Positions 12,281 through 39,881 of a DNA stretch of 39,881 bases are shown here, in pieces. Every line of letters begins with the position of its first letter. Within the stretch, counting starts at the first letter, position 1. Position numbers and translations under genes: made by a program. The notes under the pieces are model-generated. The model did no database searches. It was not told the DNA's origin and saw only the letters and a list, made by a program, of their open reading frames with translations. The DNA lies in the IMG/VR virus record IMGVR_UViG_3300044678_001288, positions 1 through 39,881 of that record; one strand, 5' to 3'. Source of the DNA: a virus.

Positions 12281-12285
12281 TTTTA

Positions 12286-12386
12286 CGAGGCCTGGCGATG
12301 CCGGGCTGGGTGTGGCCAGGCGAGTCGTTGTCTGGCTCGGCAAGCCAATAAACGCCTGCCGGTGGGCGGTATCACCGGACACTTTC
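12286..12386 (+). promoter_or_regulatory. GG-pentad array plus RCGGTA hairpin, copy 1
   Basis: GG stands at the end of successive 5-base units from 12286 to 12340 (11 units, 8 exact). The array ends in CAAGCCAATAAACG. A hairpin at 12359-12378 pairs CCGGTG with CACCGG around GGCGGTAT; a G.U pair can close this to loop GCGGTA. ACACTTTC follows. The element fills the gap before the gene at 12422. It matches the three copies at 13016-13337 in layout, while the stem sequence differs. Confidence 0.75.
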
Positions 12387-12404
12387 GGTAAACAAAAACA
12401 AGGC

Positions 12405-12419
12405 AACCAAAGCAAAACA
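12405..12419 (+). repeat. Repeated A-rich leader sequence, copy 2
   Basis: AACCAAAGCAAAACA, identical to 11062-11076, ends two bases before the ATG at 12422. There is no Shine-Dalgarno. Confidence 0.6.
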
Positions 12420-12421
12420 AC

Positions 12422-13006
12422 ATGAAGCAGATCAAAGTCAAACTCACCGGGCTGCGGCCCCTCATCATGCACAACGGCCTGATGGCGGATCCCACCAACC
12501 CATACACCGTGGCCATCAAAAAGATCACCTCCAAGGGATCCAAGAAGATGACCATACACGATCACCAAGAGCGCGACCGCTTGGAGTGGGAGGCTGGCCT
12601 TTACTGGTCCGAGGCAGAGGGCGGCATGGTCATGCCTTCCGACAACATCGAGCGCTGCATCCAGGAGGGCGCCAAGAAGAGCCGCCTGGGCAAGGACTTT
12701 GCAGCCGCGGTGTTTGTCTCGGAGCCCGAGCTAGTTGTCCACCACCGGAAGATCGGCCAGTCGAAGGAGCAGATCTACCAAGACCCGGCCTACACCATCC
12801 GAAAAGGTGTCAAGGTTCAGCTCGCCAGGATCATTCGGATCCGGCCGCTGATTCCAACCGGCTGGTGGCTGGCTTGCACCATCGAGTTCGATGAAAGCAT
12901 CGTCAACCAGGCGCAGGTGATCGACTCCACACGGGAGGCCGGCGCCATCATTGGCCTGGGCGACTGGCGGCCAAAGTTCGGCCGGTTCACTGTCGAGGTG
13001 GTTTAA
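12422..13006 (+). CDS. Conserved phage protein with MHNG and GLGDWRP motifs
   Basis: A 194-residue protein. It begins with a strand and turn (KVKLTGLRPLIMHNG), has a helical middle with a GGMVMPSDNIERCI motif, and ends AIIGLGDWRPKFGRFTVEVV. I recall this start/end pair from many phage proteins of similar length annotated as hypothetical. The layout (strand, LIMHN, late glycine-rich loop and final strand) is reminiscent of RAMP/Cas7-like ferredoxin folds, which would suggest RNA binding; this is speculation. It is flanked on both sides by the GG-pentad/hairpin elements, so it is a candidate partner for them. Confidence 0.8.
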   Translation: MKQIKVKLTGLRPLIMHNGLMADPTNPYTVAIKKITSKGSKKMTIHDHQERDRLEWEAGLYWSEAEGGMVMPSDNIERCIQEGAKKSRLGKDFAAAVFVSEPELVVHHRKIGQSKEQIYQDPAYTIRKGVKVQLARIIRIRPLIPTGWWLACTIEFDESIVNQAQVIDSTREAGAIIGLGDWRPKFGRFTVEVV

Positions 13007-13015
13007 TTTTCTCAG

Positions 13016-13115
13016 GGCGCGTCATGGCGAGGCTAGACGGGGCACGGCCCGGCGGGGCCTGGCGCGGCTAGGCAAGGCAACACGCGACCCGGCGCGGTAT
13101 CCGGGACAATTTTTC
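13016..13115 (+). promoter_or_regulatory. GG-pentad array plus RCGGTA hairpin, copy 2
   Basis: Thirteen 5-base units from 13016 to 13080; 11 begin GGC, and the others GTC and GAC. The array ends GGCAAGGCAACACG. A hairpin at 13088-13105 pairs CCCGG with CCGGG around CGCGGTAT. ACAATTTTTC follows (13106-13115). A short stem with a T run resembles an intrinsic terminator and could stop transcription from the upstream gene, but this does not explain the phased array. Confidence 0.8.
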
Positions 13116-13117
13116 GG

Positions 13118-13207
13118 GGTCGGGCTCGGCGCGGCAGGGAGCGGCAAGGCAGGGCACGGCCAGGCAAGGCAACACGTCACTGGGTACGGTAACCCAGACA
13201 ATTTTTC
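13118..13207 (+). promoter_or_regulatory. GG-pentad array plus RCGGTA hairpin, copy 3
   Basis: Eleven uninterrupted GG dinucleotides at exact 5-base spacing (13118 to 13168). The array end, GGCAAGGCAACACG, is identical to copy 2. A hairpin at 13180-13197 pairs CTGGGT with ACCCAG around ACGGTA, followed by ACAATTTTTC. The stem shares almost no sequence with copies 2 and 4, yet pairing is perfect, which is covariation within one genome. Confidence 0.82.
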
Positions 13208-13209
13208 AG

Positions 13210-13337
13210 GGATAGGTATGGCACGGCGGTGCGAGGCCGGGCGAGGCACGGTCCGGCTTGGATCGGCTCGGCGTGGACGGGCCTGGCAAGGCTTGGCAAC
13301 AACGCTTTCCGGTGTGCGGTAACACCGGGCAACTTTC
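13210..13337 (+). promoter_or_regulatory. GG-pentad array plus RCGGTA hairpin, copy 4
   Basis: Eighteen units from 13210 to 13296, 17 with GG in phase. The array ends GGCAACAACG. A hairpin at 13309-13328 pairs CCGGTGT with ACACCGG around GCGGTA. GCAACTTTC follows and the next gene's ATG is at 13343, so this copy is part of that gene's 5' leader. Together copies 2-4 fill the 336-base gap between genes; I see no other feature in it. Confidence 0.82.
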
Positions 13338-13342
13338 ACAAC

Positions 13343-13816
13343 ATGGAAACACAAGACATGATCAACGAAGAAGAGGTCCGGCGCCTTCCGCTCTGGAAGG
13401 ACTGGATCGAACGCAACGAGCACCGGCTGGCCTATGGCCTGACCGTGACCACCGAGGAGCTGGAGGCAGCCCTTGAAGAAAAAGCCGCCACAATGGCCTT
13501 CCAGATGGCAACACACAGCATTCGCGTGGTGCTGCGGCACCGAGGGATGAACTTTAGCCAGCGGGGACTTCGCGGGGCTGGCTTCCAGATTCTGCCACCC
13601 AACACAAACGCCGACGAAATGGAGCACCTGAACCGGGTGGCCATGAACAGTCTCAAGGCCTCGGTGATCCTGGGCACCAGGACAAATCTGAACCTTCTCT
13701 CCGACTGCGAGCGCAAACGCCATGAGTCGGTCACCGAAAAGATGGCGCACAGGCTGGCCCTACTGGGCCGGTCAAACACCAGCCTCGGCCAGGAGATCTC
13801 GAAACAGCTCGCTTAA
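13343..13816 (+). CDS. Hypothetical phage protein, probable regulator or replication accessory
   Basis: A 157-residue protein from ATG 13343 (METQDMINEEEVRRL). An open frame reaches back to 13229, but that part is GG-array sequence and is excluded. A helix (TTEELEAALEEKAATMAFQ) precedes a basic segment (VVLRHRGMNFSQRGLRGAGF), and the C-terminus is helical and basic (RKRHESVTEKMAHRLALLGR). From memory, phage proteins with RGMNF...RG.GF and similar C-termini occur beside replication genes and may bind nucleic acid. The stop overlaps the next start (TAATG). Confidence 0.75.
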   Translation: METQDMINEEEVRRLPLWKDWIERNEHRLAYGLTVTTEELEAALEEKAATMAFQMATHSIRVVLRHRGMNFSQRGLRGAGFQILPPNTNADEMEHLNRVAMNSLKASVILGTRTNLNLLSDCERKRHESVTEKMAHRLALLGRSNTSLGQEISKQLA

Positions 13817-39554: not shown

Positions 39555-39881
39555 TCCCCCAGATCACAGACTATTTGCTGCACAAGCTCCCGGACAGCTT
39601 CAAGGGCTGGACCCGTGAGGCCGTCGAGGACTACGTCATGTTCCACGCGGAGCAGGGTACGCTCAAGATTGCCACTCAGGACGAGCAGGTGGTTGCCGTG
39701 CTTGTAGGCTGGCGTCAGACGGGTCCAGAGCCCAAGGCCTGGGAGTGGCAGCATTCCGACCCCAATGGCGACCACTGGTACTGGCATCAATTCGCCGCGG
39801 ATTGCGCGGTATTCGCCATGGCGGTGGCGGCTAAGTTCTTCCATGACCGACCGGAGGCTGCAATCCTCCCGGCTATCGGCT
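39551..39881 (+). CDS. Hypothetical virion-region protein, 5' part (continues at base 1)
   Basis: Starts at ATG 39551 (ATGA overlap) and runs off the end of the window, continuing through the 106-base repeat to a stop at 178-180 for a total of 134 residues. The N-terminus reads MIPQITDYLLHKLPDSFKGW. The centre (ATQDEQVVAVLVGWRQ) looks like a small alpha/beta fold. See the 3' part at 1-180 for the functional discussion. Confidence 0.9.
   Translation, partial: MIPQITDYLLHKLPDSFKGWTREAVEDYVMFHAEQGTLKIATQDEQVVAVLVGWRQTGPEPKAWEWQHSDPNGDHWYWHQFAADCAVFAMAVAAKFFHDRPEAAILPAIG
39776..39881. repeat. Terminal direct repeat, right copy
   Basis: Second copy of the exact 106-base repeat found at 1-106. 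It lies inside the gene that begins at 39551. Joining the copies gives an uninterrupted 134-residue frame. Confidence 0.97.

Follow-up and report, generated by a model that had tools for sequence, protein, structure and literature searches.

The phage locus described here is almost certainly a VIPR (Viral Interference Programmable Repeat) system, comprised of vipr, vap1 and four vrRNAs in a type II-like arrangement on a complete phage genome and sharing the general mode of action of VIPR. The window, meaning the whole 39,881-nt stretch of viral DNA that was analyzed (IMG/VR record IMGVR_UViG_3300044678_001288), constitutes that complete genome, with a 106-bp direct terminal repeat at 1-106 and 39776-39881. 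The locus fits the features of VIPR, namely a Vipr protein, YNNGG repeats with fixed GGY and hypervariable NN, a structured tail and a vap gene.

As reported in a preprint of April 2026, VIPR vrRNAs consist of 9-16 YNNGG repeats and a tail and bind Vipr, with the NN pairs recognizing DNA as NNxNNxNN (a 1-nt skip); the natural targets known are satellites and prophages (PMC13142463). RNP formation, 1-nt-skip DNA binding and repression have been shown for the SUSP1 system, and VIPR, a new RNA-guided DNA-recognition code, has been proposed to predate CRISPR (PMC13142463). An initial sequence-only reading of the window had stated that no described phage element has this layout, which held until April 2026 and was then overtaken by the VIPR preprint (PMC13142463).

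Architecture of the locus

The features of the locus are as follows:

12286 to 12345, plus strand: vrRNA1 guide, 12 YNNGG units, some with decayed GG (NN = GA CT GA CG TG GT CA GA GT CT TC AA)
12346 to 12386, plus strand: vrRNA1 3' tail, type A, hairpin with RCGGTA loop, kept in relatives
12422 to 13006, plus strand: vipr gene, encoding the 194-aa Vipr protein with predicted RAMP/Cas7 fold (phrog_4652; PDB, profile, and AF2 with Foldseek matches)
13013 to 13077, plus strand: vrRNA2 guide, 13 units (NN = AG GC AT GA TA GG AC CC GG CT GC TA AA)
13078 to 13115, plus strand: vrRNA2 tail, type B, CAACACG followed by a hairpin and ACAATTTTTC
13116 to 13169, plus strand: vrRNA3 guide, 11 units (NN = GG CG TC GC AG GC AA AG AC CA AA)
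13170 to 13207, plus strand: vrRNA3 tail, type C
13208 to 13296, plus strand: vrRNA4 guide, 18 units (NN = AG TA AT AC GG GA CG GA AC CC TT TC TC GT CG CT AA TT)
13297 to 13337, plus strand: vrRNA4 tail, type D, hairpin CCGGTGT-GCGGTA-ACACCGG
13343 to 13816, plus strand: vap1 homologue, encoding a 157-aa VIPR accessory protein (Vap1 profile match)

The whole vrRNAs therefore span 12286-12386, 13013-13115, 13116-13207 and 13208-13337, respectively, and in the downstream cluster each following array begins immediately after the end of the preceding tail. All four arrays end at the 3' side in GGCAACACG or a variant, then a hairpin and a T-rich end. With 12, 13, 11 and 18 units per guide, the longest exceeds the published range of 9-16.

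Four arrays with GG in strict 5-base phase had been noted from the sequence, and all four were found where they had been placed, with bases between the GGs that differ among units in each. The phasing was far above that of shuffled sequence: 36 lag-5 GG pairs were counted in 13016-13300 against 12.0 ± 3.0 in 500 dinucleotide shuffles (maximum 22), and 6 pairs in 12281-12345 against 1.2 ± 1.0 in dinucleotide shuffles (maximum 4). No equally high lag-5 GG score was seen elsewhere in the window on either strand, and a scan of the window found no comparable array at other periods. An Rfam scan at gathering thresholds and an ARAGORN search returned no match in the window.

The covarying hairpin that had been proposed after each array was borne out. 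Across six tail variants from the window phage and related phages, 97.2% of the cells of the stem pair and three pairs have changed on both sides; the covariation score was 0.61 compared with 0.25 for shuffled tails (0 of 500 shuffles), and slid registers collapsed. Folding of single tails by minimum free energy was not unusual against shuffles for two of the four copies, and the hairpin claim therefore rests on covariation. The tail structure seen is a hairpin only, from a fold tool that leaves out pseudoknots; a tail pseudoknot has been reported for the SUSP1 clade (PMC13142463). Tails are identical or covarying across relatives, which fits the VIPR feature of an invariable structured 3' tail.

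A separate observation concerns the vrRNA tails of three other phages, in which a tRNA-like T-arm (GGTTCGANTCC) is closed by an acceptor-like stem. These tails occur in L131 (Mycobacterium phage LittleE; 2300-2486 and 3649-4010), L134 (Gordonia phage MakoManhole; 1641-1772 and 2885-3235) and L046, with the T-arm present in eight arrays, compared with a background rate of 0.002 per 90 nt. ARAGORN made no tRNA call in the T-arm-bearing tails, and the main text of the VIPR preprint makes no mention of tRNA (PMC13142463). Such tails may recruit host tRNA-processing enzymes.

The Vipr protein and its accessory protein

The sequence-only reading had pointed to the adjacent 194- and 157-residue proteins, and both belong to the system. 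In a single-sequence phmmer search, residues 1-193 of the 194-aa protein matched SUSP1 Vipr (PDB 36pp_D, E=3.7e-28), and a search of the PDB with a family profile matched a single solved structure ('SUSP1 Vipr protein', PDB 36pp; E=1.3e-42). The AF2 model reached a pLDDT of 95.4 with an alignment of 53 diverse sequences (11 close sequences gave 71). Compared by Foldseek with known structures, the model matched Csm3/Cas7 (E 8e-7, probability 1.0), and all listed top PDB matches were CRISPR RAMP complexes, mostly Csm3/Cas7.

All 65 Vipr relatives match phrog_4652 and no other PHROG; this family, annotated as function unknown, is found in named phages including Felixounavirus, SUSP1, mycobacterial, gordonial and Pseudomonas phages. 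The 194-aa protein has no Pfam match, and no NCBIfam or PADLOC Cas family was matched at a convincing score in the set of 65 Vipr-family proteins. With the two patterns used, no Vipr relatives were found in genome contigs, and hence no host.

The 157-aa protein was detected by a profile of known Vap1 proteins from which it had been left out (E=1.6e-5 to 6.8e-7). As judged from this match, it is a distant homologue of Vap1, the accessory protein of SUSP1, which is predicted to bind DNA in type II VIPR systems (PMC13142463).

Comparison with known systems

The closest described counterpart is the type II VIPR of Escherichia phage SUSP1 (PMC13142463; KT454805; PDB 36pp), which is likewise phage-borne and encodes a Vipr RAMP protein and Vap1. 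In both loci one vrRNA precedes vipr and three follow it, the NN of the YNNGG repeats is hypervariable, the 3' tail is structured and the guides have 1-nt-skip matches to other phages. The window locus differs in several respects: its Vipr shares approximately 33% identity with those of E. coli phages, its downstream vrRNAs lie between vipr and vap1 whereas those of SUSP1 follow both genes, its tail hairpin carries an RCGGTA loop and one of its guides has 18 units. Additionally, its predicted targets are a terminase gene and the genome end of sibling phages, whereas the target of SUSP1 VIPR is a satellite. Class 1 CRISPR-Cas RAMP complexes (Csm3/Cas7) resemble it in the predicted RAMP fold, in recognition guided by RNA and in periodically unpaired bases; however, these systems have identical repeats with spacers and cas genes, neither of which is present at the window locus, where the period is 5 nt, two bases are readable per unit and a single backbone protein is encoded. 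No array of identical repeats lies beside the vipr gene.

Distribution of the arrays and guide turnover

The combination of array and hairpin is not confined to this phage, and relatives were clearly found. When IMG/VR was scanned blindly for a run of ten GGs in phase, (GGNNN)x10, at least 120 stretches were returned, almost all of which, where inspected, resemble intergenic GG-pyrimidine-NN arrays. Among the listed loci, 82 of 120 encode a Vipr relative by an iterative search from the window 194-aa protein; the arrays lie on the Vipr strand in 255 of 256 cases (255:1), at a median nearest distance of 17.5 bp. SUSP1 and its relatives display the anatomy seen at the window locus.

Two further loci attracted attention in their own right. 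In LittleE, an Omegavirus, the VIPR locus (L131 2486-3648, gp34-gp33) is an inverted insertion between the tape measure and tail genes and resembles a mobile cassette. Phased-GG arrays of 700-800 bp, far exceeding a single vrRNA, occur at L029 6311-7015 and L080 8059-8863 and are possibly of an overlapping 'staggered' type.

A Vipr with 57-100% identity to that of the window is encoded at 27 loci, and relatives with 95-100% identical Vipr keep the tails while their guides differ. The positional entropy, calculated from 547 units in 47 guide sequences, was 0.84 bits at Y, 1.96 and 1.98 bits at the two N positions and 0.35 and 0.40 bits at the two G positions. Near-maximal entropy at NN combined with near-fixed GG is the pattern of a guide repertoire, a pattern that neither a regulatory site nor a quadruplex needs. 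In relatives, variant vrRNA4 guides are constant in their core and differ in the units on either side of it, in parallel with the flanks of the genome-end site that the core matches (see below). An identical guide was seen with two different tails (L144, tail C; L143, tail B), indicating that guides shift between vrRNA positions, probably through recombination in shared repeats.

Predicted targets in sibling phages

The targets of vrRNA1 and vrRNA4 are likely the terminase gene and cos of sibling phages, as judged from sequence matches. The cos/terminase target is what is new here, VIPR itself being already known; the main text of the VIPR preprint mentions neither terminase nor cos (PMC13142463). 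Forty-three distinct guides of the clade were scanned against contigs from that clade totaling 307 kb. At a skip of 1, three of the 43 guides gave E<1e-3 and seven E<1e-2, although independent target events are fewer than these counts because two of the top three guides have a common core and hit a single site, and the other four, at E values from 1e-3 to 1e-2, represent a single guide in variant forms. Skips of 0, 2 and 3 gave none below 1e-3, and neither did any of 172 shuffled guides.

The best match was that of vrRNA1 units 1-9 (12286-12330), with 18 of 18 bases in the small-terminase gene (phrog_57) of a sibling VIPR phage, at the peptide ELDRWVQEV, on the sense strand and with the skip on the wobble base; units 10-12 are mismatched. 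The same 18-base match occurs in at least 119 further IMG/VR stretches, and in 118 of 118 tested ORFs the gene encodes the small terminase. This count is not independent evidence, the motif being conserved, and instead shows the reach of one guide: at least 47 distinct DNA versions of the site match, differing only at the skipped positions.

A vrRNA1 seed match in DNA polymerase genes (20 of 24) was set aside, one or two such matches being expected. A tail-E guide of a different phage (L158) has another tail and additional units at its 5' end; it has eight NN units in common with vrRNA1 and hits its terminase site, reflecting either re-acquisition of a favored target or old common descent. For the tail-B guide of relative L146, 16 of 16 bases match within the gene for a DnaB-like helicase in another sibling phage (contig G010, L235; reverse strand, approximately 18437), in the sense orientation and wobble frame.

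For vrRNA4, units 3-11 (13217-13261) match the genome-end or probable cos sequence of sibling phages, with mismatches at units 12-18; in five contigs the core AC GG GA CG GA AC CC finds its match in ACAGGTGAACGCGAGACCCC, which lies 287-296 bp upstream of the small-terminase gene that also holds the vrRNA1 match. Related contigs often start exactly at this site (GGTGAACGCG.. or GGTGATCGCG..), with 43 occurrences at most 3 nt from a stretch end, and the site is therefore read as a genome end, probably cos. Most of the skipped bases are also conserved and most copies contain no long ORF, pointing to a DNA site and not a codon-based one. Four of the vrRNA4 matches in IMG/VR gained meaning, and did so only through their proximity to the vrRNA1 target, and the match to cos is significant mainly because it adjoins that target. 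Exact and seed scans of IMG/VR with vrRNA2, vrRNA3 and vrRNA4 gave chance-level extensions, and no convincing target was found for vrRNA2 or vrRNA3.

Alternative explanations

The sequence-only reading had considered a multivalent RNA-protein site analogous to that of TRAP and a chain of two-layer G-quadruplexes. Under the first explanation, a ring-forming or filamentous protein on the phased GG triplets would regulate transcription or translation of their own operon; under the second, the quadruplexes would act in DNA or RNA. TRAP sites, with 11 phased (G/U)AG triplets, also have G-containing triplets in five-base phase, and the arrays do lie in the 5' and intergenic regions of the operon. 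However, the linked protein has a predicted RAMP fold unrelated to that of TRAP (no TRAP-like Pfam match was found among the scanned neighbor proteins), the intervening bases carry information and change between near-identical phages where a regulatory site needs no such change, the arrays are repeated as separate modules with their own tails and without regulatory leader logic, and the guides match sibling-phage genes. A TRAP-like regulatory leader or decoy is thus very improbable; what stands of the earlier proposal is that RNA units would each be read by a protein subunit, as in SUSP1 VIPR. Repeats of GGN3 can in principle form two-layer quadruplexes, but quadruplexes tolerate varied loop lengths, so that a strict phase over up to 18 units would go unexplained, as would the position-3 pyrimidine and the close linkage of the arrays to a RAMP-fold protein. 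There is no reason for a quadruplex chain, and its probability is negligible, with GGY instead read as a scaffold held by the RAMP-fold protein.

Granting a VIPR system, its vrRNAs might act on the phage's own genome or on host genes and not on competitors, or the terminase and cos matches might be coincidental with the true targets elsewhere. In one relative (G004), the vrRNA1 guide occurs together with the terminase gene it would target, the position of the site falling beyond the contig end. Against self-regulation, the complete window genome contains no vrRNA1 site, vrRNA4 site or homologue of the targeted terminase, no contig holds both a guide and its exact site, and a scan of 84,980 bacterial genomes with the vrRNA4 core gave chance-level matches only; self-regulation is accordingly improbable. 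The large terminase of the window had no match in the eight sibling contigs tested, some of them fragments, while other segments are shared. Coincidence is somewhat less improbable, though still unlikely. In its favor, the guides match only in part, roughly one chance match in IMG/VR is expected for a gapped pattern of 18 bases, and the guide seed scans gave mostly chance-level extensions. Against it, the vrRNA1 match first emerged from just 48 contigs, it is in the sense orientation with its skips at wobble positions, independent matches of vrRNA4 lie no more than 300 bp from the gene it hits, and shuffled guides and other skips lack such matches.

Proposed mechanism and implications

By analogy with SUSP1 VIPR, the GGY triplet is read as the scaffold gripped by the RAMP-fold protein and NN as a noncontiguous guide for DNA. 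Vipr subunits would coat the vrRNA, presumably one per 5 nt, gripping GGY and presenting NN, and the resulting RNP would pair with double-stranded DNA in the pattern NNxNNxNN. The complex would then block DNA functions of competitor phages, here sibling phages with a different packaging module, with vrRNA1 directed at the small-terminase gene and vrRNA4 at the probable cos approximately 290 bp upstream. For this phage we infer vrRNA transcription, RNP assembly, DNA binding and the stop of packaging alike. Only tentatively can it be proposed that VIPR attacks the start of packaging in a rival, with the RNP blocking terminase assembly or cos cutting beyond an effect on transcription alone.

The locus represents an independent and distant member of VIPR found from raw sequence, whose near relatives display guide turnover on a fixed scaffold. 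It offers concrete predicted targets, namely a genome end and a terminase motif in which positions 1-2 of each codon are read, and leads to two testable claims: that wobble-skipping defeats synonymous escape and that VIPR interferes with packaging besides transcription. If true, wobble-skipping would let one guide recognize the terminase motif in at least 47 DNA versions from a large group of phages.
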